Source of the DNA: a virus
IMG/VR virus record: IMGVR_UViG_3300013111_000660
Location: 1 to 30,851 of that record
Direction: 5' to 3' (one strand)
Length of the DNA: 30,851 nucleotides
Shown: in pieces, positions 9,669 to 29,897 of the stretch
Layout: each line of letters starts with the position of its first letter
How positions within the stretch are numbered: the stretch's first letter is position 1
The notes under the pieces: model-generated
What the model was told of the DNA's origin: nothing
The model's input: only the letters and a program-made list of their open reading frames with translations
Database searches by the model: none
Made by a program: the position numbers and the translations under genes

Positions 9669-10667
9669 ATGATAATAAGAAAAAGAAAAGATTATAGTTC
9701 GTCAAAAATTGGCCGTGATGTTTTAGATATGATATGTGATGAGTGTGGGATTGACTTTGTGCGCAGCTGTAGAAAAAGAGAGTACAATAGGATCAATTTT
9801 TGTTCTCAAAAATGTCGTCATAAATCCCAAAAAAATGGCGGGGCGCTAAGGAAAAAAACAACAAAAACTTTAACTAAAAAGTATGGAGTGAGTCACACAT
9901 GGCAATCTAGCGAAGTAAAAGAAAAAACAAAACAAACTAATCTTAGAAGGTACGGAGTAGAGCACCCACTACAATCGTTAGAAGTGAAATCAAGAGCAAA
10001 GAAAAAATGTTTAGATGCACATAACGTAGAACATCATTTGAAATTATCAATTATCAGAGACAAAATAAAACAGACAAATCTCGAAAGATATGGTACAGAA
10101 CACCATCTATCTTCAGATAAAGTCAGAGATAAAATAAAACAGACAAACCTCAAAAGATACGGAACAGAGCAATCATTACAATCTCACGAAGTTCGAAACA
10201 AAATAAAACAGGCAAACCTTGAAAAGTATGGTGTCGAAAACCCATTTCAGTCTAATGAAATAAAAGCTAAATTTGACTATGTCGAAATGAGCAGAAAACG
10301 GCATCAAACAAAAAAGAAAAATGGTACATACGGAAAATCAAAAGCCGAAGACAAAATATATGATTTATTATGTGAATATTTTAAAAAAGAAAATGTAAAA
10401 CGTCAAGTACTGTTAAATTCATGGAATATAGATTTCAAAGTCAAAAACACATTTATTCAGTTTGACGGTGTTTATTATCATGGGCTCAATAGAGATTTAC
10501 TCGAAATCAAAAAGTTCAAAACGTCCATAGATAGAACAATCTATAAAACTTATCTTCGTGATCAAGAACAAAATAAATGGTTTAAAGAGAGAGATATTAA
10601 TTTAATTCGAATTATTGAAACAGACACAACTGAACAAATTCTTAAAAAGCTTGCCAAAATAAAGTAA
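9669..10667 (+). CDS. Homing-type endonuclease, Vsr-like nuclease with six 23-residue repeats
   Basis: Probable free-standing homing endonuclease that cuts related phage genomes and spreads its own gene. The N terminus has four Cys in C23-x2-C26 ... C45-x3-C49 spacing, a likely zinc knuckle. Residues 72-209 are six tandem repeats of exactly 23 residues, each starting YGxEHxLQS and ending KxKQTNLxR (starts 72, 95, 118, 141, 164, 187), a DNA-binding array known in phage endonucleases. The C-terminal domain (about 225-325) has the Vsr/EDxHD-type nuclease pattern: E226 in SKAEDKI, D255 in WNIDFKV and QFDGVYYH (264-271). Nothing is broken, so it may be active. It is Lys/Asn-rich and more AT-rich than the capsid gene, fitting recent transfer. 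It begins without a ribosome binding site. Confidence 0.85.
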   Translation: MIIRKRKDYSSSKIGRDVLDMICDECGIDFVRSCRKREYNRINFCSQKCRHKSQKNGGALRKKTTKTLTKKYGVSHTWQSSEVKEKTKQTNLRRYGVEHPLQSLEVKSRAKKKCLDAHNVEHHLKLSIIRDKIKQTNLERYGTEHHLSSDKVRDKIKQTNLKRYGTEQSLQSHEVRNKIKQANLEKYGVENPFQSNEIKAKFDYVEMSRKRHQTKKKNGTYGKSKAEDKIYDLLCEYFKKENVKRQVLLNSWNIDFKVKNTFIQFDGVYYHGLNRDLLEIKKFKTSIDRTIYKTYLRDQEQNKWFKERDINLIRIIETDTTEQILKKLAKIK

Positions 10668-10676: not shown

Positions 10677-12206
10677 ATGCAATTCAACTTTAATAGGCAC
10701 AAATGTAAACTTTGCGATTCATTTATTAGTAAAAATAAACGATCGTTGTCATATCACATAAAGAGAATGCACACATATACGTTGCAAATGTATGTTGATG
10801 AATTTTATTATTTTGGTAGTACTCCTACTTGTGATTGTGGTTGTAGAGAAAAAACATCTTGGCACCCAAATCAACTAAAATATACAGAGTATAAACAAGG
10901 ACATAATCCTTCTGGGTTTACAACAGAAAATCAGCCCACATTTACATCGGAACAAATAAAAAATCGTGGACTTGCAATCGCAGAAGGGCATAGGAAGAAA
11001 AATATGAAAAATAACGTATCAAAAAAAGTTCAACAAATACTTGATGATACATTCAAAAAAATGAACGATCCCGATTATATATTTCCTCATAATCGTCACC
11101 CACTGATCTGTCGTAACGACCTAATCGCCATCAATGACCCAACACTTGGTGGTCCTGGAAAGGATTTCACTCGTGATAAACTAAAGCCTGCACTCATCAA
11201 ATTCTTTCAGGAATATGTCAGAACATACGGCTTTTTTGAACACGAGACGAAAGACACTCTTGGGACAGTCATTACAAAGCTTCGTAACAAAGAAATTGAC
11301 ACAACCTCAGAGTGGATTTCATCACTAACACGAGACGGTAATGATTATTTAAAATCAATATTTAGTTCATATTGGAATGTTGATAAAGGCCCAGCGAAAC
11401 TTTGGTTTAACGATCATAAGTTTGGGAAAGTATTAGACTATCGTTTAGGGCTCAATAACTCAAAAGACTACTCATATACCCTTGACGATGGCTCACGTTG
11501 GGCCGGAAGGGAAACCTTTGATATATCACCTCATACACTCATTCGGGGTTTTGTGGTACAGCGCGCAGCTGTCTCGTGGTTCAAGCCGTCGGTAGCATAT
11601 CATATTTATAAACGTTTTTGTAACGAAATAGAAAATCCAGTTGTTTGGGATCCTTCAATGGGGTTTGGTGCTCGGCTTACTGGGTTTGTAGCCGCTTGTC
11701 CATCTGGAAAGTATATTGGGACAGACCCAGCATCAGAGACATTTTTAGATCTAAAAGTTCTTGAACAGGAGATTATCAATTCAAAAGTATTTGATGGCGG
11801 AATGGAGCTTCATAAAAACGGAAGTGAAATGATTCAGCTTAACGAGAATATTGGTGATTTGGTTTTTACTTCTCCTCCGTATTTTGATTTGGAGCGTTAT
11901 TACGATGAACCTGGGCAATGCTGGCGTGATCACAATACACTTGAACTTTGGATTGAAAATTATTTGATCCCAACATTTGAAAATGCCTATAAGTTTCTCA
12001 AGCAAGATGGGCACCTGGTGATTAATGTAAGTAAGAAATATGGAGATATTATTGCTGCCGCTGCAAAAAAAGTTGGGTTTAGGCATATAGAAACGTTTAA
12101 GCTAAAGACTGGTAGGGATCACTTTAATAAAAAAGCTGGACATCATAAAACGAATTTTGAGCCGATTTTTGTGTTTAAAAAACGTTCGCCTAATGCACGG
12201 CGCTGA
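10677..12206 (+). CDS. DNA methyltransferase with homing-endonuclease-like zinc-finger N terminus
   Basis: Probable SAM-dependent amino-methyltransferase (N6-adenine or N4-cytosine). Motif I is DPSMGFGARL (residues 325-334), with an acidic GTDPAS about 20 residues on; motif IV is TSPPYF (398-403), the N4-C/N6-A type. The order I then IV only about 70 residues apart leaves no room for a target-recognition domain between them. The N terminus carries a C10-x2-C13-x13-H27-x4-H32 zinc finger, then C52DCGC56 and a GHN at 75-77, which matches with identical spacing the N terminus of the endonuclease at 24962. Residues about 85-300 are an unrecognised middle domain. It starts nine bases after the endonuclease gene, with no ribosome binding site. 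It could protect DNA against a nuclease or against host restriction; the target is not deducible. Confidence 0.85.
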   Translation: MQFNFNRHKCKLCDSFISKNKRSLSYHIKRMHTYTLQMYVDEFYYFGSTPTCDCGCREKTSWHPNQLKYTEYKQGHNPSGFTTENQPTFTSEQIKNRGLAIAEGHRKKNMKNNVSKKVQQILDDTFKKMNDPDYIFPHNRHPLICRNDLIAINDPTLGGPGKDFTRDKLKPALIKFFQEYVRTYGFFEHETKDTLGTVITKLRNKEIDTTSEWISSLTRDGNDYLKSIFSSYWNVDKGPAKLWFNDHKFGKVLDYRLGLNNSKDYSYTLDDGSRWAGRETFDISPHTLIRGFVVQRAAVSWFKPSVAYHIYKRFCNEIENPVVWDPSMGFGARLTGFVAACPSGKYIGTDPASETFLDLKVLEQEIINSKVFDGGMELHKNGSEMIQLNENIGDLVFTSPPYFDLERYYDEPGQCWRDHNTLELWIENYLIPTFENAYKFLKQDGHLVINVSKKYGDIIAAAAKKVGFRHIETFKLKTGRDHFNKKAGHHKTNFEPIFVFKKRSPNARR

Positions 12207-12276: not shown

Positions 12277-13047
12277 ATGATATTATCACCGACCAAAGGT
12301 TTTGCATTTTTCAAGCCAATGAAAACAGCAGGCTCTTCAATTGAATTTGCGCTTGCTTTATCATGCGGTCCAGCTGATTTAGTAACAGGTGGAATGTACG
12401 GCGCCGAACAAGACGCAGGCTTTAAACAGCAAAATAATGATTACGAAGAAAATGGTGAAAGATTCCTGCGTTATCATACACATACAACACCCGCAGTTTT
12501 AAAAGAACGCTGTAGTCCAGCCACATTTGATAAAATAGAAAAACTTAAATGGATCACAATGGTGCGTAATCCTTGGGATGCTGTTGTTTCATATTATTGG
12601 TGGAATATGAAAAATAATCGTCACAGTAGATGGAAGATAAACAGCTCTGATTTTTTAACTGGAAAAGCAAAAAAGAAGTTTGAAGATTTTACATTTAATC
12701 GTATTTCAAAATTTCCAAGTGTTTATCCTCCAGGCGCTCATGATACTTGCACGGCATATGAATATATTCGAAACTACAATAATCAATTTATTGATCCGGG
12801 AATGCAGCATTATATAACATTTGAAAATCTTGAACGTGATTTTGAAACTGTAGTTGAAGAATTGGGCTTATATAACGTTGAATTACCTAGATTTAAAACT
12901 GAATATAAAACAATTAAACGCCACTACAGCCAGTATTACAACGCCGAAACACGACAAATTGTGTCTGACGGATTCAAAGATTATATTGATGCATTCGATT
13001 ATTCGTTTGAGCATAAGCGAAAAAAACGTTTCAATAATAAAAAATAA
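12277..13047 (+). CDS. Sulfotransferase family protein
   Basis: Probable transfer of a sulfo group from PAPS to a sugar or other hydroxyl acceptor in the cytoplasm of the infected cell. The 5'-phosphosulfate loop is FFKPMKTAGSSIEFAL (residues 11-26, PMKTAGSS at 14-21) and the 3'-phosphate site is MVRNPWDAVVSYYWW (R97, S105), both well conserved. The C terminus has the family's HYSQYYNAETRQIVSDGF...DIDxFxYxFE-like ending (about 213-246). At 256 residues it is complete, with no signal peptide or membrane anchor, unlike many cellular relatives. It lies between the mobile endonuclease/methyltransferase pair and two small virion-like proteins and has its own promoter, so it looks like an acquired accessory gene. 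The acceptor is unknown; virion glycans, host surface sugars or a metabolite are all possible. Confidence 0.88.
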   Translation: MILSPTKGFAFFKPMKTAGSSIEFALALSCGPADLVTGGMYGAEQDAGFKQQNNDYEENGERFLRYHTHTTPAVLKERCSPATFDKIEKLKWITMVRNPWDAVVSYYWWNMKNNRHSRWKINSSDFLTGKAKKKFEDFTFNRISKFPSVYPPGAHDTCTAYEYIRNYNNQFIDPGMQHYITFENLERDFETVVEELGLYNVELPRFKTEYKTIKRHYSQYYNAETRQIVSDGFKDYIDAFDYSFEHKRKKRFNNKK

Positions 13048-18555: not shown

Positions 18556-18603
18556 AATTAATGATATGTGTGTATAGCGCAAACAAAGAATAGGAGACAC
18601 TTG

Positions 18604-21585
18604 ATGTCAGAACAAACCTTCAAATCGCCAGGCTTTTTTGAAAGTGAAATCGATCTTTCGGGAACAAGTAAAAGTGCAACCGGTGTTCCTGCTGGTATAA
18701 TTGGAACTGCACAAAAAGGTCCTGCATTTTTACCAGTGACAGTTTCATCGTTTAAAGAATTTACAGATATTTTTGGACAGCCAGACGGTAAGCAGTTTGG
18801 CCCATACGCTGTAAAAGAATTTTTAAAGAATCGTGATGCGCTTACATATGTTAGGGTGCTTGGTGCTGGCGGTGGGACATTGTCTGGTGAAGCGACAAGC
18901 GCAGGATTTAAAGTAGAAAGCACACTTCTTGACGACACTGCGGTGACTGGTGACGATAGCACAGATAGCGCATCACGTTATACAGGTAGCACACAATTTA
19001 TTGTTGCGACGCAAGACACAGCTGCACAGGAGGTGATTGGTAACCCGCTCTTCACAGATTCAGATATTGCTGATACACATGACATGGTTCGTGCAATGAT
19101 CATGGTGCCTGAGGGCGTTCGTATGATGGTTCATGCAGATTCAGGTATCACAAACCCCTGGAACGCTTCTGCCCCCAGCCTAGACGACTCTATGACACCT
19201 GCAGTAGGTACGCAAGATTTTAAATTAATTCTTAGTGGTGTAAGTGAAACAACGGACACATTTGTAGGTGTTAAGGTATTTTCTGCATCACTCGATCCCG
19301 ACAGTGATAAATATATATCAAAAATTTTGAATACTGATCCGACACGATTCACGACCGACAGTCATGTTCTTTACGCTGATTTTCCTGTTGATAGCGCAAT
19401 GCTTGATTCAACCCAGCCAATGGACTTTATTAGGATTGCATCAGGTTCGGCTGGCACATCATTCGGAGATCTAACATCACGCTATTCTGCCCCTAAGACA
19501 ACTAGCTTTATTTCGCAACCTTTCGGCGCAAAAGAATATGACTTATTTCACTTTGAAACGCTATATGATGGTGCGTCAATGAATGAAAGTTTTAAAGTAT
19601 CTATATCTGATCTTAAGTTTTCTACTAGCGTAGGAAATCAATGGCCAACATTTACAGTTCAAATTAGAAATTTTTATGATACAGATACATCTAAGCAAGT
19701 GATTGAACAATTCTCAAATTGCAATCTAAACCCGGCTTCAAAACGTTATGTAGCAAATGTTATTGGCGATAAAAAAATATATTATAATTTTGACGCAGGA
19801 TCAAAATCAGAACGTCGCATGGTAAAATCAGGAAAATTTGAAAATAAATCAAGCTATGTTCGTATTGTGATGGATTCTAATGTTATTAATGGAAATATTC
19901 CGCAACATGCACTTCCATTTGGATTTAAATCATTAAGCACTCTTGACACGTATGGTAAGCTTTCATATTGGAATAACGATGGTTCAGCAGCTATGGATGC
20001 AATTAACGCTTACATGCCACCTCTTCCTCTTCGTTTTAAGGTAACGAAAGGCCCATTAGATTCAACATCTCCAACGTATACAGGAGAAGCAGGAACAAAC
20101 GAATCAGTTGATTCTCGTCTTTATTGGGGCGTAAAATTCACAAAGCTTTCAACTACACTTACATCACCGCTACTTCAACCAAACAAAGGCAGGTTTAATC
20201 CGCTCATTAGGTCGTACGCAAAAATGCTTGCTGTTAGCAATGATTTAACTGCAGGTGCTGCAGCAGGCACAGATGCAACGGCATATAATAAATTTACACT
20301 TTCTCGTGTTGCATTAAATGAAACTGTTTTAGGCAATGTTGGTACAGCAGCTAGCGAGATGTTAATGGCTTCATATATTAGGAATGGCAATTACTTCAAT
20401 GCTGCAAACACAATTACAGATGACGTTGGCGTTTTAGACGCTCGTCTTACATTTGCATCTCTTGCAAACGCAACAGATAAATCAACATTCAATAAATTCT
20501 CGAAATATATGAAATTTACAAATATGTTTTCAGGTGGGTTTGATGGTGTTAATGTTCTAAATGCAGACATGGCCGCAATAAGTGATAGGTCAACATCAAT
20601 TGATACAGGCGGTTTAGCGCTTGGTGGCTCGGTTACACTTGCCACGTTAGGGCTTAAGACAAATCCAGCTGGATCAGGTGAAGATAATAATGCTGTTAAT
20701 TCATTCAGAGCTGCGATCAATATTTTAACTGATGAAATGTCGTCACGTATTAATATTCTTGCAATTCCTGGAATGAGAGATGCATTCATTACTGATTATG
20801 CTGCAGAAAAAGTGAAGGATTATGGCTTGGCAATTTATCTTATGGATATGATTTCATATGCGAATGCTAGCGGCGCTGTTTCTCGTATCTTTGACAATGA
20901 TGGCAACGAACCAGATACAGATGAGACAATTGCAAGATTTTCTGCACGAAGTATTGACAACAATTATGTCGCAACATATTATCCAGATGTTAAGCTTCAA
21001 GATGAATTTAATGATATTATTGTTGATGCGCCAGCATCAATTGCGGCGTTAGCTGCAATTAGCTACACCGATTCAGTATCATATCCCTGGTTTGCACCTG
21101 CCGGTTTTAACAGGGCTTCACTTGAGGCAGTTAAGGGTGTTTCTGCACGTTTAAATACATCAGATCGTGATAATCTTTATGAAGAAAGAATTAATCCAAT
21201 TGCAAAGTTTCCTCGTGCAGGGTACGTTATATTTGGGCAAAAAACACTTCAACTAATGGCGTCATCACTTGATCGCGTTAATGTTCGTCGTATGCTACTT
21301 GAGGTAAAACGCCAAATTTCTGCTGTCGCAAAAAATATGCTGTTTGAACAAAACAATGCTTCTACACGTGCAAAGTTTGCATCACAAATAGCACCAAAAC
21401 TTTCTGTGATCCAGTCGCAGCAGGGTATTGATAAATTTAGTGTTATTGTTGATAATTCAAATAATACGCAAGCAGACATCGAAGCAAATAAAATGAACGG
21501 GAGAGTCGTACTTGTCCCAACGCGTGCAATAGAATATGTTGCAATCGACTTTATTGTAACATCATCTGGTGTAAGTTTTGAATAA
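18604..21585 (+). CDS. 18: Contractile tail sheath protein, copy 1, gp18 family
   Basis: Sheath subunit that polymerises around the tail tube and contracts to inject DNA. The N terminus SPGFFESEIDLSGTSK, then GIIGTAQKGPAFLPVTV (about residues 30-47), and the C-terminal core with YPWFAPAGFNRASLEAVKGV (W829), VIFGQKTLQ, SSLDRVNVRRMLLEVKRQI and the beta-strand arm ending EYVAIDFIVTSSG are all diagnostic. The ATG at 18604 is chosen because a GGAG site stands just before it. At 993 residues it is much larger than T4 gp18 (659), the extra lying in the middle, surface-exposed domains. The next gene is a paralogue. Confidence 0.95.
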   Translation: MSEQTFKSPGFFESEIDLSGTSKSATGVPAGIIGTAQKGPAFLPVTVSSFKEFTDIFGQPDGKQFGPYAVKEFLKNRDALTYVRVLGAGGGTLSGEATSAGFKVESTLLDDTAVTGDDSTDSASRYTGSTQFIVATQDTAAQEVIGNPLFTDSDIADTHDMVRAMIMVPEGVRMMVHADSGITNPWNASAPSLDDSMTPAVGTQDFKLILSGVSETTDTFVGVKVFSASLDPDSDKYISKILNTDPTRFTTDSHVLYADFPVDSAMLDSTQPMDFIRIASGSAGTSFGDLTSRYSAPKTTSFISQPFGAKEYDLFHFETLYDGASMNESFKVSISDLKFSTSVGNQWPTFTVQIRNFYDTDTSKQVIEQFSNCNLNPASKRYVANVIGDKKIYYNFDAGSKSERRMVKSGKFENKSSYVRIVMDSNVINGNIPQHALPFGFKSLSTLDTYGKLSYWNNDGSAAMDAINAYMPPLPLRFKVTKGPLDSTSPTYTGEAGTNESVDSRLYWGVKFTKLSTTLTSPLLQPNKGRFNPLIRSYAKMLAVSNDLTAGAAAGTDATAYNKFTLSRVALNETVLGNVGTAASEMLMASYIRNGNYFNAANTITDDVGVLDARLTFASLANATDKSTFNKFSKYMKFTNMFSGGFDGVNVLNADMAAISDRSTSIDTGGLALGGSVTLATLGLKTNPAGSGEDNNAVNSFRAAINILTDEMSSRINILAIPGMRDAFITDYAAEKVKDYGLAIYLMDMISYANASGAVSRIFDNDGNEPDTDETIARFSARSIDNNYVATYYPDVKLQDEFNDIIVDAPASIAALAAISYTDSVSYPWFAPAGFNRASLEAVKGVSARLNTSDRDNLYEERINPIAKFPRAGYVIFGQKTLQLMASSLDRVNVRRMLLEVKRQISAVAKNMLFEQNNASTRAKFASQIAPKLSVIQSQQGIDKFSVIVDNSNNTQADIEANKMNGRVVLVPTRAIEYVAIDFIVTSSGVSFE

Positions 21586-21624: not shown

Positions 21625-24372
21625 ATGGCAGAATTAACATATAAAAGCGCTGGAGTAGGAACCAGAGAAATTGACCTATCACAGCCAAGTAAGCTTGGGC
21701 CGCAAGGGACACCTGCGTGTGTTATTGGTACTGCAAATCGCGGTCCTGCATTTGTGCCAGCAACTGTCGGCGATTTTAGATCGTTTGTTACACGGTTCGG
21801 TGAATCTGATGGTGAAAAGTTTGCGCCATTAGCGGTAAATGAGTGGCTGAATAATGCTAAAGCACTGACATTCGTTCGTACCTTAGGTGTTGGAGATGGT
21901 TCTCAAGCCGCAGACGGTGTTGTAACAAATGCCGGTTTTGAAGTTGGGGTTCGGCTTCCGCAAGCAGATGGTAATGTTGCTGCAAACCCTGTAAATACAG
22001 GAGGAGCAGTCGGCGACACGTATATATTAGGCGCGCATATGGCCGACTCTGCAGGTTCAACATTTCTCGCTGACGCAGGCCTATCAGGAACTGTTCCAGT
22101 TGTTCGCGCTATGTTGATGGCACCATACGGTGTAACGCTGGGTATTGGTGACGATTCTACACCAACAGCTGATGAGGCAACTGCTCAAAGCGCTGACTCA
22201 ACAGTGTTTATTTACTTTAATACACATACATCATCAACAGATGCTCCAGCGGTTTTAGAAGTGTCTTTTGATCCAACATCACAGTTATATCTTTCGAACG
22301 TTTTAAACACTGACCCTCTTTTGATTGAAGAGAAGGGACACCTACTTTACACGCATTATGAGGTTGACACTGTTAATGCTGTTGTCACTGCACCGGTCAC
22401 TCCAACTGATACTGTATTTTTGAAAACAAACAATGGCGCAACAATTGATTATAAGGCATTTACGCAACGTTTTAATCACGCGCGTACTCCCTGGGTAAGG
22501 TCTCAAAAATTCGGTGCATCTGCATTTGACCTCTTTAAGATTCATGCGCTTTCTGACGGTGAGTCTGAAACAACAAATATTAAAATTTCTATTATGAATA
22601 TTTCATATGATAGAAACGGTTCTTGGGGCTCATTTGACATAGCTGTTCGTCAATTTGATGACACTGATGCAAATCCTGTTCAATTAGAAAGATTTTCAGG
22701 ACTAACTCTTGACCCAACATCAGATCGTTATATTGCTAAAGTTGTAGGTGACAACAATCTTTTTTATAACTTTGATAAAAACACACAGCAATTATCTGTT
22801 CAGGGTTCATACCCAAATAGCTCTGCATACATTAGAGTTGAAATGAGTACGGCTGTAAAATCATCAGCTATTCCTGTTGATTCTCTTCCAATGGGCCATG
22901 AAGAATATATGAGCCTAACACTTACAGACTACTTTACAGGCGCCTTTTCTGCAACTGAAGAGCTTCCTATTCCGTTTCGCAGAACTATAGCAGTAGGTAC
23001 AGCATTGAACAAAAAAGCTTATGCAAAACTCCACTGGGGTGTTCAACATTCAGTCGTTCAAGATCTTGCCGAGCCAAACGAATCATTTGTTCAGGCTTCA
23101 ATTTCAAGAAATATTATAAAATTCATGGCTTTCGGCGGTTCTAACTCAGTTTGGAGCACGCAAGTAAAAAATAATAATGAATTTTCATTGGAAAAAATTG
23201 AAATTGCAGAAACTAGTGCTTCTGATACAACGCTTGATGTAGATGAGTGGCAACATGCTGAATATCGCAGGGACGCTGTTTTAGACGGTTCATTAGACTC
23301 GGGTGCAATTACAGACACAAGGTTTTTACTTGCTTCAGATTTGACATCAACTGTGAGTCGTAACTATACTAAATTTACAATGTTAATGCAGGGCGGATTT
23401 AACGGGACAAATATCTTCAACGAAGATAAATCAAAGATGCAAAATCCAGCTATCATTAGGGAAATGAGTGATGCGACTTTACAAGGTGGAACTTCTGGAC
23501 CTACAGTTGCATCATATCGAAAAGCTATTGATGTAATTACAAGTAAATCAGATGTTGAAATTCAATTGTTAGCAATTCCAGGTATCAGGAATTCAGCGGT
23601 CACAGATTATGCTCTTGATACCGTCGAATCTCGTTTTGATGCATTATTTATTATGGATATTGATCAATATGACAGCACTAATTCAGTCATGACAGGATCA
23701 GATCAGGTTGTTGATGTTGGTAATACTATTTCAAACTTCGCTGGTGTCGGTTTTGATTCATCATTCGGTGCAGCATATTTCCCTGATGTTATTATGACAG
23801 ATCCAATTGCGGGATCGTCAATACAATGCCCTCCGTCTGTTGCGGTTCTAGGTGCGATGTCTAAAAATGATTCATTGGCTCATCCGTGGTTTGCGCCTGC
23901 TGGCTTTACACGTGGAGCCCTAAGCAATGTCTCGGGCGCTGCTGTAAGTTTCTCAAGGGAAAATCTTGATTCACTTTACGAAAACAAATTAAATCCACTC
24001 ACGTCGTTTCCAGGAACTGAAGTTGTTATCTGGGGGCAAAAAACGTTACAAGATGCTTCATCTGCGCTTGATCGAGTAAACGTCCGCCGCCTATTAATTG
24101 AAATTAGACGTAACGTAAAAAATATAGCATACGGTTTTTTGTTTGAACCTAACAGGTCGGAAACACTTGCAAAATTTGAGGCGCAAATTAATCCGCTCCT
24201 TCAAAGCATTCAAGAGAAATCGGGCCTTGACAGGTATAAAGTAAAAATTGATACTGAGACAACAACTCAGGTGGACGTGGAAAACAACACACTACGTGGA
24301 AAGATCTACATACAACCCACTAAGACAGCTGAGTTCATATCACTTGACTTTGTTGTGTCAAATACATTATAA
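21625..24372 (+). CDS. 18: Contractile tail sheath protein, copy 2, gp18 family
   Basis: Second sheath paralogue, 915 residues, starting 39 bases after the first with a TTGGAG ribosome binding site. It keeps the same landmarks: SAGVGTREIDLSQPS, CVIGTANRGPAFVPATV, HPWFAPAGFTRGALSNVSGA (W755), VIWGQKTLQDASSALDRVNVRRLLIEIRR and the C-terminal arm KIYIQPTKTAEFISLDFVV. The middle domain differs most from copy 1. Both copies look intact, so either both are built into the sheath or one serves another role. It ends 38 bases before the tail tube gene, as expected for gp18-gp19. Confidence 0.95.
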   Translation: MAELTYKSAGVGTREIDLSQPSKLGPQGTPACVIGTANRGPAFVPATVGDFRSFVTRFGESDGEKFAPLAVNEWLNNAKALTFVRTLGVGDGSQAADGVVTNAGFEVGVRLPQADGNVAANPVNTGGAVGDTYILGAHMADSAGSTFLADAGLSGTVPVVRAMLMAPYGVTLGIGDDSTPTADEATAQSADSTVFIYFNTHTSSTDAPAVLEVSFDPTSQLYLSNVLNTDPLLIEEKGHLLYTHYEVDTVNAVVTAPVTPTDTVFLKTNNGATIDYKAFTQRFNHARTPWVRSQKFGASAFDLFKIHALSDGESETTNIKISIMNISYDRNGSWGSFDIAVRQFDDTDANPVQLERFSGLTLDPTSDRYIAKVVGDNNLFYNFDKNTQQLSVQGSYPNSSAYIRVEMSTAVKSSAIPVDSLPMGHEEYMSLTLTDYFTGAFSATEELPIPFRRTIAVGTALNKKAYAKLHWGVQHSVVQDLAEPNESFVQASISRNIIKFMAFGGSNSVWSTQVKNNNEFSLEKIEIAETSASDTTLDVDEWQHAEYRRDAVLDGSLDSGAITDTRFLLASDLTSTVSRNYTKFTMLMQGGFNGTNIFNEDKSKMQNPAIIREMSDATLQGGTSGPTVASYRKAIDVITSKSDVEIQLLAIPGIRNSAVTDYALDTVESRFDALFIMDIDQYDSTNSVMTGSDQVVDVGNTISNFAGVGFDSSFGAAYFPDVIMTDPIAGSSIQCPPSVAVLGAMSKNDSLAHPWFAPAGFTRGALSNVSGAAVSFSRENLDSLYENKLNPLTSFPGTEVVIWGQKTLQDASSALDRVNVRRLLIEIRRNVKNIAYGFLFEPNRSETLAKFEAQINPLLQSIQEKSGLDRYKVKIDTETTTQVDVENNTLRGKIYIQPTKTAEFISLDFVVSNTL

Positions 24373-24410: not shown

Positions 24411-24902
24411 ATGGCCGAAACACTATCAGTTACCGATATGCTACCGAACAAATTCGAACCAAAGAGGTCGAATCGGTGGGTCTTACAAATAGAAGGAATT
24501 GACGCTTTTCTGATCAAGACATCAAAACGTCCATCGATGACAATGAGCTCAGTGAAAATTCCTTTCATTAACTCAAAACGTTATGTTGCAGGTGGGTTTG
24601 AGTTCGACACAATGGATGTCACTCTTCATGATCCGATTGCCCCGTCAGGTGCTCAACAGGTTATGGAGTGGATTCGAACACACTTTGAATCAGTTTCAGG
24701 CCGTGCAGGGTATGCAGACTTTTATAAACGTGACATTCAACTTAAACTTTTAGATCCTGTTGGGACAGTTGTTGAGCTATGGGATATCAAAGGCGCTCTT
24801 ATCGAAAAAGCAACATATGGTGACTTAAGTTATGAGGACGATGCAAAAATTCAAGAGATTAGCCTTACACTTCGTTATGATCAGGCAGTATTACAGTATT
24901 AG
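24411..24902 (+). CDS. 19: Tail tube protein, T4 gp19 family
   Basis: Stacks as hexameric rings to form the inner tail tube. The 163-residue protein equals T4 gp19 in length and has its signatures: NRWVLQIEGIDAFLIKTSKRPS (about residues 21-42), the loop FINSKRYVAGGFEFDTMDVTLHDPIAPSGAQQVMEWI (about 50-86), and the C-terminal WDIKGALIEKATYGDLSYEDDAKIQEISLTLRYD (about 124-157). It follows the sheath genes in the usual T4 order. Unambiguous. Confidence 0.97.
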   Translation: MAETLSVTDMLPNKFEPKRSNRWVLQIEGIDAFLIKTSKRPSMTMSSVKIPFINSKRYVAGGFEFDTMDVTLHDPIAPSGAQQVMEWIRTHFESVSGRAGYADFYKRDIQLKLLDPVGTVVELWDIKGALIEKATYGDLSYEDDAKIQEISLTLRYDQAVLQY

Positions 24903-24961: not shown

Positions 24962-26584
24962 ATGACGTATATTAGTATCAATTGTCCCGTTTGCGAATTT
25001 TCTTCGAAACAGGAGAAAAAATTATTTGACCATCTTTTGCTCTCACATAATACAAGCCCAGAAGAAGCATACATAAAATACAAAAACAATAATATTCCAA
25101 TATTTTGTAAATGTGGCTGTAAAGAAATACCTAAATGGCGCGGCTGGAAAGTCGGTTATTCACCATACATAAGGGGCCATAACGCAAGGGATTATACAGC
25201 TTTTACAAGCGCGGAATTTATTAAAAGGTCTTCTGAGAAAAGAAAAAAGGGTTTTAGTGAGGGAAAATATAAGGTTTGGAATGATGGATTAACAAAAGAG
25301 ACATCTAAAACAATCCAAGCAATGAGTGATAAGGTTTCTAAAACACTTCACGAAAAGTATAGGTCGGGCGAACTTGTCTCATGGCAAACGGGTCTTACAA
25401 AAGAAACTGATGAACGATTATTAAGGTCATCACAGACAAAAAAAAGAAAATACGAGACCGGTGAGGCGCAATCATGGAATCAAGGTTTAACAAAAGAAAC
25501 CGATCATCGTGTGGAAATAGCAGCGTTTAAAATATCAGCACGTTATAATAAGAGAGAGGCAGGAAAACGCTTAAACGAAACAGACGTAATAAGTAGGATA
25601 AAAAAATCAGATTTTACATACATTTCTGGTGAGTATAAGACGCGTCGTGAGTCAAAGCTATTCATTCAGTGTAATACCTGCAAGAAAGATCAATATAGGA
25701 CACTATATTCAGTTGATATGTCACTAACATGCTTTTACTGCAGGCCAAAAGAATCAAAGGCACAAATTGAAATAAATGAGTTTATTAGGTCATTAAATAT
25801 TGAAACAATCCTTAGCGATAGAAGTGTTATCGCGCCCCAAGAACTTGATATATTAGTTCCTTCGAAAAATATCGCAATAGAGTATAATGGTTTATACTGG
25901 CACTCGGCGAATTATAAGGATAAAAAATATCACTCAGGCAAAACAGATATGTGCAATAAAAAAAGCATACAACTTATTCATATTTTTGAAGATGAATGGC
26001 GAGATAAAAACATGATTGTTAAATCACTTATCAGTGCAAAGCTTGGTATAATTGACAAAAAAATATTTGCAAGAAAATGCGAGATACGAGAAGTTCCCTC
26101 AAAAGAAAGAAAAGAATTTTTTAATAATAATCATATTGACGGTGACACTCGGGCGAAAATATCGTTTGGCCTTTATTTCGAGAATGAGCTTGTAAGCTGC
26201 ATATCACTTAGAAAATCATTTCACAAGAAGTGGAATGATTATTTTGAAGTTGCACGAAGCGCTTCAATAAAAAACACGATTATCATAGGGGGGTTATCTC
26301 GCCTTACAAAACATGCCTTTAAATTTTCTCAGGTAAAAAATAAAAAAGGTATTTTATCATACGTTGATACACGTTACGGAAATGATTTAGGATATATTAA
26401 AGCCGGGTATAAAAAGCATGGTGAGACAGGAGAAATGTTTTGGTGGTCTGACAATATTAATCGTTTTAATCGTTTTAAAATTAGGGCAAATAAAGAATTA
26501 AATTTAACCGAAAAACAGGTTGCGCAAAAAGAAAACATGACAAAAATATATGGATGTAAAAATTTGGTATTTTTATTTGAGTAG
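24962..26584 (+). CDS. Homing-type endonuclease, Vsr/PD-(D/E)XK-like, with GNAT-like C-terminal domain
   Basis: Probable free-standing homing endonuclease inserted between the tail tube and baseplate genes. The N terminus has a C8-x2-C11-x12-H24-x4-H29 zinc finger, C49KCGC53 and a GHN at 72-74, shared with the methyltransferase at 10677. Three W-x2-GLTKET motifs follow (GLTKET at 109, 144, 175), as in NUMOD-type DNA-binding repeats. A Cys pair C237-x2-C240 / C257-x2-C260 forms another zinc knuckle. The nuclease core is SKAQIEINEF (E270), ELDILVPSKNIAIEYNGLYWHS (about 294-315, E307, H314) and LIHIFEDEW (338-346). Residues about 370-500 (EFFNNNHIDGDT, FENELVSCISL, GGLSRLTKHAF, SYVDTRYGNDLGYIKAGY) resemble the GNAT/Mom-like domain often joined to such nucleases. 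All parts look intact. The free-standing gene has no ribosome binding site. Confidence 0.87.
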   Translation: MTYISINCPVCEFSSKQEKKLFDHLLLSHNTSPEEAYIKYKNNNIPIFCKCGCKEIPKWRGWKVGYSPYIRGHNARDYTAFTSAEFIKRSSEKRKKGFSEGKYKVWNDGLTKETSKTIQAMSDKVSKTLHEKYRSGELVSWQTGLTKETDERLLRSSQTKKRKYETGEAQSWNQGLTKETDHRVEIAAFKISARYNKREAGKRLNETDVISRIKKSDFTYISGEYKTRRESKLFIQCNTCKKDQYRTLYSVDMSLTCFYCRPKESKAQIEINEFIRSLNIETILSDRSVIAPQELDILVPSKNIAIEYNGLYWHSANYKDKKYHSGKTDMCNKKSIQLIHIFEDEWRDKNMIVKSLISAKLGIIDKKIFARKCEIREVPSKERKEFFNNNHIDGDTRAKISFGLYFENELVSCISLRKSFHKKWNDYFEVARSASIKNTIIIGGLSRLTKHAFKFSQVKNKKGILSYVDTRYGNDLGYIKAGYKKHGETGEMFWWSDNINRFNRFKIRANKELNLTEKQVAQKENMTKIYGCKNLVFLFE

Positions 26585-27003: not shown

Positions 27004-27882
27004 ATGCCTGATAAACTATCAAGAGAAAATATTTTTAATCCGCAGCAGCAACAATCTGTCACTGCACAAGTTCAAAGCCAGTCACAAATGCCAATAAATA
27101 ATGTGCTTAGGGACGATTTTGGCTGGGACGTGCCAATTGAATCAGCGCCATTACCATCAGGGGGAAGAGTATATAATAAAAACTCAACACTTTATGGTCG
27201 TAAAACACTTGACATACGAGCGATGACAGCAAAAGATGAAGACATTTTAATGTCACAGGCATATATCAAGCAAGGCAATGTGATTTCAAAACTTCTTGAG
27301 TCATGCATAATAGACAAGTCTATAGACATTAATGAAATGCTTGTCGGTGATAGAAATGCTGTTATGATTTCAATTCGAATAACTGGCTTTGGAGCACAAT
27401 ATAAAACTACTGTACTTTGCGAGCATTGTATGACATCACAATCTGCATCGTTTAATCTTTCTGACCTTGGGCTTAAACGTCTCGGGTCTGACCCGCTAAG
27501 TGATGGTGAAAATAAGTTTTCCGTTGAGCTCCCAGTGACGAAAAAGACTGTTTATTTTTCATTAACAACAGTAAATTCAGAAGATGAGGCGATAATTTCC
27601 GCTAAACGAAATAAAGATCTACTTGGTATTGATCACGATCAAAGTAGGGTGACATCTTCGCTTTTAAACACTGTGATTGCAATTGACAACATTTCAGATA
27701 AAAATAAAATTAAGAAATTTATCCAGAATATGCCTGTTCGTGATTCGCGTTTTTTGCGTAATCATATTAAAGAAATTGAACCAGGAATTGACATGGCAGC
27801 TACTTTAGTATGCACATCATGCCAAAGGGGGTCTCAAGTGAATTTACCACTTGGGACAGGATTTTTTTGGCCTGACCTCTAG
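27004..27882 (+). CDS. 26: Baseplate hub/tail assembly protein, gp26-like
   Basis: Matches the T4 baseplate protein family that includes gp26 and gp51: LPSGGRVYNKNSTLYGRKTLDIRAMTAKDEDIL (about residues 50-82), SKLLESCIIDKSID, MLVGDRNAVMISIRITGFG (about 111-130). Two CxxC pairs, CEHC (about 140-143) and CTSC near residue 270, suggest a zinc site. The 292-residue product ends only five codons after a run of seven T (27862-27868); a +1 shift there would continue into a 57-residue extension, giving about 345 residues. It lies just before the tape measure gene, the place of the tail assembly chaperone in other phages. Strong TCTAGGAG ribosome binding site. Confidence 0.82.
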   Translation: MPDKLSRENIFNPQQQQSVTAQVQSQSQMPINNVLRDDFGWDVPIESAPLPSGGRVYNKNSTLYGRKTLDIRAMTAKDEDILMSQAYIKQGNVISKLLESCIIDKSIDINEMLVGDRNAVMISIRITGFGAQYKTTVLCEHCMTSQSASFNLSDLGLKRLGSDPLSDGENKFSVELPVTKKTVYFSLTTVNSEDEAIISAKRNKDLLGIDHDQSRVTSSLLNTVIAIDNISDKNKIKKFIQNMPVRDSRFLRNHIKEIEPGIDMAATLVCTSCQRGSQVNLPLGTGFFWPDL

Positions 27883-28042
27883 TTACAAAGAGCAGGTACT
27901 AGAAGAGCAGTATTTATTACTTAAAAATTTAAACATAGATTACATTGCGGTTAGAAATATGCCAATACAGCATAGGCAATGGTTCATTCAGCGTTTCATT
28001 AAAGAGCTAGAACAAAGGCAAATTGCACGTTCAAAAAGCTAA
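27842..28042 (+). CDS. Frameshift extension of the gp26-like gene (no start of its own)
   Basis: An open stretch in the +1 frame relative to the gp26-like gene, from just after a TGA at 27839 to a stop at 28042. Read from the T7 run it gives GLTSSYKEQVLEEQYLLLKNL then IDYIAVRNMPIQHRQWFIQRF, a helical, well-formed sequence with a MPxxxRxW motif. It has no good independent start: a TTG at 27851 without a well placed ribosome binding site and an internal ATG leaving only 28 residues. It is best explained as the C-terminal part of a frameshift product, like GT of lambda. Confidence 0.6.
   Translation: MYHLGQDFFGLTSSYKEQVLEEQYLLLKNLNIDYIAVRNMPIQHRQWFIQRFIKELEQRQIARSKS
27862..27868 (+). promoter_or_regulatory. 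Candidate +1 ribosomal frameshift site (T7)
   Basis: GGA TTT TTT TGG in the gp26-like frame. A tRNA-Phe slip of one base forward on the T run (or transcriptional slippage) moves reading into GGC CTG ACC and past the stop at 27880-27882 into the 57-residue extension. A shift of -2 would give the same frame with one extra Phe. Confidence 0.5.
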
Positions 28043-28088: not shown

Positions 28089-29897
28089 ATGGCTGAACTT
28101 AGTGATGAAACTGTAAAAGAACTTATATCTGTGCTTAAAGCACGTAATTCTTTTGATTATAGCCAAGGCCAAGGTCAATGGCGCGCTCCTTGGCAAACCA
28201 CTCCTGGAATACCCGCAGCGATTCAAGACGCTGTAGCTACCGCAAGCCCCACCGCTTCTATTCCAGCTGTTGTTAAAAGTAATGACGCATCAATTTCAGA
28301 CGCAGTTGCTAAAACTGAAATGGGTTTCAATAAGCTCTTAGAGCTCTTAGAGAAAGCATCTGCAGGTATAGGCATAGACGGCGAACTTCTTAAAAAATTC
28401 ACAGATGAATTATCACTTGAAGGATATCTAACAGAACTTGAGTCTCAAACTGACAAGATGTACGAATCACAGCAAAATATTATTGGGTCATGGGGTCAAG
28501 CGATTAATGCCGATGGTATAAAAAATATCGCCGCCACAATGAGTGCTGCTACGTTTGACATGCATAAGCAGTTTGCATCAATTGAGGCACCTGATGGATC
28601 AATGTTTTCACATTATTTTGATGATAGTTTTGATGCAATCCATCAATTTAACGCAATTGTAAAAGATTCAGTCATTCTAGTTAGAATGCAAAAAGATATT
28701 AGCGCCAATGATATGAAAGATCTTTTACTTACAACAAAAGCTTTGGGCTATAGCGAAGGGCAAGTGCAACAGTTCATGAAACGCCAAATGGCATTATCAG
28801 GAAAAATGGATGATACACTTCTTAAAGAATCATTGGCTTTTTCTAACGCAATAGAAGCTAAGACTGGTATATCAAGCAAAATTATCTCTGGAAACATTGC
28901 AAAGATGATGAAAAACGTTGAGCGCTTTGGTAATATGACAGTCGAAGAAATGTCTGAAGCCGCTGCAGCTGTCGCACATCTCGGCCTTCAGGTTAAAGAT
29001 GTTGCAGACATGTCGCAACAGTTTGATAACTTTGACGACGCAGCAGACAGTGTTGCGAAGCTTACGGCTGTGTTTGGTGTTCAACTTGACGCGATGGAAA
29101 TGATGAAAGCTGCGAACGAAAGCCCGGAGGAGATGATAAATATTGTAAAACAGGCGTTTGAAGACGCCGGGACAGATATTGCATCGCTTTCAATGCCTGG
29201 GAAGAGGGTTCTTTCGGAAGCGTTAGGAGGAATAGGTATTCAGAAAATTGAACAAATGCTAGGCACTGCAGGATCATCATTTAGTCAATTTCAAAAAAAG
29301 ACGACTGATGCAATCGACGGGGTCGATGCATTAGATATCACTGCTGCGGTCGCTAACGCAATGGGTGATATTAATAAGCTTAACACATATGCAGGTGATA
29401 TGGGGAAAATGACTCAAAAGGCCGGGCAAAAGGTGATCGCAGCAACTGCTGCATTGGCCATTGAACAAACAACAGCGATTAAAGAAAACCTTCAAACCGT
29501 ACTGAATCAAGGTGTAGCGTCAGCGCACACATTTACTAGTGAAATGGCAGATCAGCTTGGCCTTGGTTCATTTGCGAAAAAAATTGGTGTCAAATATGGA
29601 TTGCCCGTCGTCGATACTTCGGTTGAAATTAACCAAGCTGTGCGCGAAGCATTGAACACAGGAAACTACACCAAAGCTACCGAAAAACTAGAAACATTGA
29701 TTTCTAATTCAACTTCATCAGATGAAGCGCTTAAAGAAGCAATCAATGGATTGAAATCATGGCTTGATGCGATTTCAAGTAAAGAGCCCAAACCTATACC
29801 TGTACAATTAAATGTCAAAGTCACAGCTGACGGAACGTTTGTCGATGTTCCTGTGGGCCAACAGGTTGTGACAGTGGATGTATCTGAGTCGTCATAA
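28089..29897 (+). CDS. Tail tape measure protein
   Basis: Sets tail length by spanning the tube lumen during assembly. The 602 residues are almost all helical with Ala/Met/Lys-rich repeats; the region GYSEGQVQQFMKRQMALSGKMDD (about 220-240), NVERFGNMTVEEMSEAAAAV and DDAADSVAKLTAVFGVQLDAMEMMKAANESPEEMINIVKQAF (about 315-356) follows the pattern of tape measure proteins in T4-like marine phages. The length is near that of T4 gp29 (590), so a tail of roughly T4 length is expected. It follows the frameshifting assembly gene, as tape measure genes do in other phages. The C terminus is short beta-strand (VQLNVKVTADGTFVDVPVG). Sequence similarity to T4 gp29 itself is not visible to me. Confidence 0.72.
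   Translation: MAELSDETVKELISVLKARNSFDYSQGQGQWRAPWQTTPGIPAAIQDAVATASPTASIPAVVKSNDASISDAVAKTEMGFNKLLELLEKASAGIGIDGELLKKFTDELSLEGYLTELESQTDKMYESQQNIIGSWGQAINADGIKNIAATMSAATFDMHKQFASIEAPDGSMFSHYFDDSFDAIHQFNAIVKDSVILVRMQKDISANDMKDLLLTTKALGYSEGQVQQFMKRQMALSGKMDDTLLKESLAFSNAIEAKTGISSKIISGNIAKMMKNVERFGNMTVEEMSEAAAAVAHLGLQVKDVADMSQQFDNFDDAADSVAKLTAVFGVQLDAMEMMKAANESPEEMINIVKQAFEDAGTDIASLSMPGKRVLSEALGGIGIQKIEQMLGTAGSSFSQFQKKTTDAIDGVDALDITAAVANAMGDINKLNTYAGDMGKMTQKAGQKVIAATAALAIEQTTAIKENLQTVLNQGVASAHTFTSEMADQLGLGSFAKKIGVKYGLPVVDTSVEINQAVREALNTGNYTKATEKLETLISNSTSSDEALKEAINGLKSWLDAISSKEPKPIPVQLNVKVTADGTFVDVPVGQQVVTVDVSESS

Follow-up and report, generated by a model that had tools for sequence, protein, structure and literature searches.

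A gp26-like tail gene in a mostly uncultured phage clade is predicted to give two tail assembly proteins by +1 frameshifting

Introduction

Does the gp26-like gene of this marine virus end at its own stop codon, or do some ribosomes change frame on a run of T's and continue into the short open frame that precedes the tape measure gene? The question arises in the window, by which we mean the whole 30,851-nucleotide stretch of viral DNA analysed here (IMG/VR record IMGVR_UViG_3300013111_000660). The arrangement recalls lambda gpG/gpGT, P2 E/E' and Mu 41/42 in its gene order, its overlapping frames, its short and long product and the slippery site late in the first frame. The likeness drawn here is one of architecture, and lambda shifts -1 where the window would shift +1. 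Our analysis puts at about 90% the probability that a T4 gp26/gp51-family gene here encodes a tail assembly chaperone (TAC) of the lambda G/GT type, giving two proteins by +1 programmed frameshifting.

Results

The gp26-like protein of the window scores 52.3 bits against PF12322, for which the curated cut-off is 24.5, and thus belongs to that family; its AlphaFold2 model has a pLDDT of 89.6. The gene ends GGA TTT TTT TGG CCT GAC CTC TAG, with the seven T's at 27862-27868. This agrees with the initial annotation, in which the frame stopped five codons after TTT TTT T and a shift led into a 57-codon open frame. The +1 frame is indeed open from upstream of the T run until the stop at 28042, and its post-shift product, GLTSSYKEQVLEEQYLLLKNLNIDYIAVRNMPIQHRQWFIQRFIKELEQRQIARSKS, is exactly 57 codons long. 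Its lack of a credible start was also borne out, as the sole in-frame start upstream, a TTG at 27851, is not preceded by a Shine-Dalgarno sequence. The -1 frame closes six codons past the 0-frame stop, so that the window has no canonical -1 heptamer arrangement, a feature that many but not all G/GT-type systems show. Nor does it have the T4-like pair of a separate gp26 and a fused gp51: the extension lies in another frame, and a search of the window record (a 30.9-kb fragment) for a second copy of the gp26-like protein returned the self-match only. Searched alone, the extension had no hit above cut-off in Pfam or PHROGs, and a phage tblastn search was also empty. The gp26-like protein also carries two CxxC pairs, CEHC and CTSC, which recur across many relatives and, in part, in T4 gp26/gp51 and possibly form a zinc ribbon.

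Table 1. Features of the window discussed in the text
Feature	Position	Strand	Evidence
Short form (TAC-N), gp26-like PF12322 protein, 292 aa	27004..27882	+	PF12322 E 8e-14; phrog_150 E 2e-17
Slip site TTTTTTTGGCCT, 0-frame TTT TTT TGG CCT	27862..27873	+	read from sequence
0-frame stop TAG, terminates short form	27880..27882	+	read from sequence
+1-frame extension, 57 codons + stop; core + extension = long form (TAC-NC)	27869..28042	+	conservation, third-position bias, profile matches
Tape measure candidate, 602 aa, probable chaperone client	28089..29897	+	similarity to equivalently placed ORFs of relatives
Tail tube protein (gp19-like), probable long-form partner	24411..24902	+	phrog_4542 E 1e-26; PF06841 E 4e-6
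CxxC pairs in gp26-like protein	27410-27435, 27810-27830
Homing endonuclease	24962-26584		phrog_3339 E 2e-77
Second homing endonuclease	9669-10667
Tandem tail sheath genes, 1005 and 915 aa (longest ORF)	18568-21585, 21625-24372		both match phrog_23 and phrog_10581
Sulfotransferase-like gene	12277-13047		phrog_3347 E 2e-5
C-terminal DNA methyltransferase-like match	10677-12206		phrog_67 E 6e-8

The initial annotation had proposed a comparison of this junction among relatives, and we made it with 80 IMG/VR loci selected via core-protein similarity alone. In 78 of the 80, a T-rich site is followed by GGCCT, a 0-frame stop lies 3-6 codons past the Phe-Phe pair and the +1 frame holds a homologous extension; these counts are not independent events because the loci are related (L007 was included after direct reading of its junction). 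The extension is 57-95 aa long across the clade. Two loci did not conform: the contig of L019 is truncated, and L041, on an intact contig, has the same slip site and owes its exception to an apparent 4-nt duplication within the extension. Slip sites were tallied for the window, the 78 conforming relatives of this selection and, in addition, Microcystis phage L084, giving TTTTTTTGGCCT at 73/80 sites and TTCTTTTGGCCT at 7/80. The type of the 0-frame stop (TGA, TAA or TAG) varies. At none of the 67 non-redundant sites does the second Phe codon depart from TTT or the Pro codon from CCT, although elsewhere in these genes 29% of Phe is encoded by TTC and only 24% of Pro by CCT. The invariance of CCT is partly explained by the +1 frame, which reads Gly-Leu there. 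Differences in the extension frame fall mostly at the third codon position (0.17/0.09/0.42 by position), and single changes comprise 1468 synonymous and 436 non-synonymous ones. The extension is under purifying selection. The locus therefore shares with G/GT-type systems, on comparative evidence, an overlapping second frame reached near the end of the first, together with a conserved slippery sequence.

The G/GT-like gene order that had been suggested for the window holds in annotated isolates: L083 and L087 carry sheath, tube, gp26-like, extension and tape measure genes in that order, and L084 is consistent with it. The window gene likewise lies between the tube gene and the tape measure candidate, with a homing endonuclease gene and a small ORF after the tube gene; the insertion of the former splits the usual tube-TAC neighbourhood. 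The 602-residue downstream protein resembles large ORFs that occupy the equivalent position in relatives (E to 6e-26) and, weakly (E 6e-4), ORFs of the group whose reference L083 is annotated with a tail tape measure protein. Somewhat against the proposed arrangement, four marine relatives (L020, L034, L054, L079) have an extra gene of about 115 aa between extension and tape measure. Elsewhere in the window, a sulfotransferase-like gene lies within the structural region and a DNA methyltransferase-like match between head and tail genes (Table 1).

The position beside the tape measure bears on the function of the two products. It is rather unlikely, in our view, that the frameshift is real but the products are baseplate-hub assembly factors and not lambda-type tape-measure chaperones. 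A T4 review lists gp26 and gp51 as hub assembly chaperones, gp51 being essential and of unknown function (PMC3004832), and structural similarity to known TACs is weak: the best PDB match of the core by both probability and target TM-score was itself a TAC, HK97 gp13 (2OB9), but it was not significant (E 4.2, probability 0.16, TMt 0.45). A sequence-profile search of solved structures found no relative. However, the two-form architecture, the helical C-terminal tail and the place next to the tape measure match G/GT, and these genes have been identified as TACs in published work, as cited in later articles (see Discussion). We therefore continue to regard the products as probable tail assembly chaperones.

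The direction of the shift had been left as "+1 (or -2)". The frameshift itself is strongly supported, and variation at the slip site favours +1 over -2. Phage Mu is reported to use a -2 shift, and in the window the exact run of seven T's would also let a P-site UUU re-pair two bases back, reaching the same frame with one extra Phe. This fits only a perfect T run, however, and not TTCTTTTGG or TTTCTTTGG: at TTC TTT TGG (7 loci) and TTT CTT TGG (34 loci) re-pairing at -2 fails and at +1 is good, and the move from CUU-U to UUU is an RF2-type +1 slip. A -2 shift is accordingly quite improbable. Every +1 site in the window clade, or in the Flavobacterium-phage group described below, contains UUU with U or C after it, so that a P-site Phe tRNA could re-pair at +1. 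The A-site codon is UGG in most +1 sites, and the codon entered is GGC. Downstream RNA structure, whose absence counts somewhat against our reading, was not detected, with 0 pairs in the cyanophage alignment and a mean z of -0.31 in the window clade.

The +1 arrangement extends beyond the window clade. In the Flavobacterium-phage group (immuto and relatives, about 80), every complete locus has a +1 extension, with slip sites TTTCTTTGGCCT, TTTTTTTGGCCT, TTTCTATGGCCT and, once, TTTCTTTACCCT. With E values of 1e-5 to 8e-11, an extension HMM found a +1 extension at the junction in Listeria phage LIS04, in an uncultured huge phage and in Streptococcus phage GXN1; in LIS04-like phages and GXN1 it follows TTT TTT CGT/CAC/AGT or TTC TTT CGT.

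Other members of the family have the extension in the -1 frame. In cyanophages, whose core and extension are both homologous to those of the window, U UUU UUC is invariant (81/81), the stop comes one codon after it and the extension lies in -1, whereas the window extension lies in +1. Among 77 non-redundant cyanophage sites, TTT and TTC are 100% conserved and the codon before them always ends in T (AGT/TCT/GCT/AAT), while the Gly and Leu codons neighbouring the heptamer vary freely. About nine bases 5' of the heptamer a Glu-Gly pair (GA[AG]GG) is invariant, and by analogy with dnaX it could serve as an internal Shine-Dalgarno stimulator. PA5oct-like phages and huge-phage record L088 also combine U UUU UUC with a -1 extension. 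Pseudomonas phage Cygsa01 and Ackermannviridae (L091, L258) conserve the -1 frame on both sides of the stop (FHL[MI]FE[LIV]DL), after TTTTC. Six loci, namely L089, L259 and L260 (PA5oct-like), L091 and L258 (Ackermannviridae) and L097 (Cygsa01), are likely to carry gp26-like genes with -1 extensions; the annotation of L089 (Paride) shows no tape measure within the few kilobases downstream.

These groups bear on whether the extension is instead a separate small gene, expressed by re-initiation or from its own start, which we consider very unlikely. It is often annotated so: Microcystis phage Mel-JY01 and Cygsa01 have separate CDSs, in Cygsa01 with an ATG that overlaps the stop, and a 46-aa 'gp51' is annotated in cyanophage S-RIM8. 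Nevertheless, neither starts in the extension frame nor Shine-Dalgarno sequences are conserved, and an ATG with a four-base Shine-Dalgarno occurs in that frame in only 1/67 non-redundant loci of the window clade, 3/75 of the cyanophages and 3/56 of the remaining group. In Cygsa01 and Ackermannviridae, the -1 frame is conserved upstream of that ATG too, and the annotated S-RIM8 start falls inside the conserved domain. The S-RIM8 product (L090, 6495-6632), named 'baseplate hub assembly catalyst', corresponds to the 3' part of the -1 extension with its start misplaced. A separate gene would also leave the conserved slip sites unexplained. In no group examined is the extension an independently started gene, and among the relatives examined it never stands alone behind a good start and a ribosome binding site, the finding that the initial annotation held would count against a frameshift.

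Slippage of RNA polymerase on the T run might be suspected from seven T's in an AT-rich gene, but it is highly improbable because the same frame relation is found in relatives with four consecutive T's (TTCTTTTGG) or three (TTTCTTTGG, TTTCTATGG). A sequencing error in a homopolymer of a metagenome contig, or a decayed gene, can practically be dismissed: the same run and open +1 frame recur in dozens of independent contigs and isolates, where the T run is not corrected to six or eight, the variation at the slip site also speaks against an error, and substitutions are biased to third positions. Programmed frameshifting thus remains our reading of the locus.

We also traced the extension to T4. 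There, profile comparison identifies gp51 as a paralogue of gp26 (probability 99.5%). T4 gp26 has no extension, and gp51 is a core with the extension fused on: PF12322 spans its residues 1-201, leaving the last 48 (202-249) outside. In profile-profile comparison, the gp51 C-terminus matched the cyanophage -1 extension at 97.2% with a score of 56.8, against a best score of 18.1 and at most 6% in 60 column shuffles and a score of 10.1 on reversal. The extension of the window clade in turn matched that of the cyanophages (extA vs extC) at 95.2%, scoring 44.0 against 17.0, and fusA of the window clade matched fusC of the cyanophages at 97.6%. The window-group extension compared directly with the gp51 C-terminus reached only 0.2%, so that the link runs via the cyanophage group; likewise, hmmsearch with the marine extension missed T4 gp51, and the relation is visible only by profile-profile comparison through cyanophages. 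The gp51 model (pLDDT 87.8) has three C-terminal helices between 208 and 248, and Foldseek found no match for it in the PDB. T4 gp28 was tried as an extension homologue and did not match the extension. Separately, gp28 (gene 28; L082, 8349-8882) has a weak profile match to gp26 (52.7% probability) and may be a third distant paralogue. Thus, T4 and the window share PF12322 and a homologous C-terminal helical extension, but T4 has two genes and no frameshift where the window has one gene and a predicted +1 shift. In a maximum-likelihood tree, gp26 and gp51 form a pair (100/97) next to the -1 cyanophages; the +1 groups fall on the opposite side, and PA5oct-like -1 members branch at the base of these groups. 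The exact branching order is unsure because the branches are long.

Discussion

Ribosomes very probably slip +1 on the T run of this gene, yielding a short and a long tail-assembly helper from one gene. As read from the conserved junction, most ribosomes would pass UUU UUU UGG CCU and terminate at UAG, giving the short form. A minority, the rate being likewise a prediction, would stall while Phe-tRNA occupies the second UUU and UGG, a Trp codon, stands in the A site. The P-site tRNA would then move one base forward, from UUU to UUU, GGC would enter, and the 57-residue helical tail would be added. By analogy with lambda, the short form may coat the tape measure protein, and the rarer long form may bring tube subunits to it via its tail. 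As a G/GT-type chaperone, the locus would be expected to produce the long form at a low and constant ratio, and neither form should occur in the virion.

The earlier proposal that gp26-like proteins are tail assembly chaperones was probably right as to function, but it was not new. The TAC genes of T4-like phages were identified by Vladimirov, Gautam and Davidson (2022, Virology 566:9-15), as cited in PMC10885494 for short-plus-fused genes and in PMC12846349 for poly-T -1 sites in the TAC-N genes of T4-like phages. On the strength of these citing passages, the chaperone identity, and probably the -1 sites, were already known. Atkins et al. (2016) described G-T frameshifting as widely conserved, T4 excepted, and called the shift in a tail gene of the haloarchaeal myovirus HSTV-2 very likely +1 (PMC5009743). 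HSTV-2 resembles the window as a contractile-tailed virus with a +1 shift in a tail-assembly gene, a likeness drawn from the description. The TAC of phage Adele (Vandenendeviridae) also has a poly-T slip site and two forms, one short and one long, ahead of the tape measure, but it shifts -1 on GTTTTT where the window would shift +1, and it too is likened by description (PMC12846349).

We found no published report of the +1 clade in the open-access literature. What may be new, therefore, is this clade with its UUU-UGG-CC site, together with a change of shift direction within one family. We lean, by a modest degree, towards a broader view: that a large and mostly uncultured clade, comprising marine, Bacteroidota and Listeria/Streptococcus phages, makes a gp26/gp51-family chaperone by a hitherto unreported +1 shift at UUU-Y, mostly followed by UGG CC; that the direction changed within the family between +1 and -1; and that duplication and fusion in T4 removed the need for a shift.

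In summary, this locus would be the counterpart, expressed by frameshifting, of gp26 and gp51, the hub-assembly proteins of T4, and it adds independent sequences in support of these proteins as tail assembly chaperones. Our comparison also corrects an annotation error that is common among cyanophages, the short 'gp51'. The slip site is a predicted natural +1 site without dependence on a stop codon or downstream RNA structure. Taken across the family, +1 shift, -1 shift and duplicated genes form a natural series of ways in which phages may keep a fixed ratio between the two proteins.
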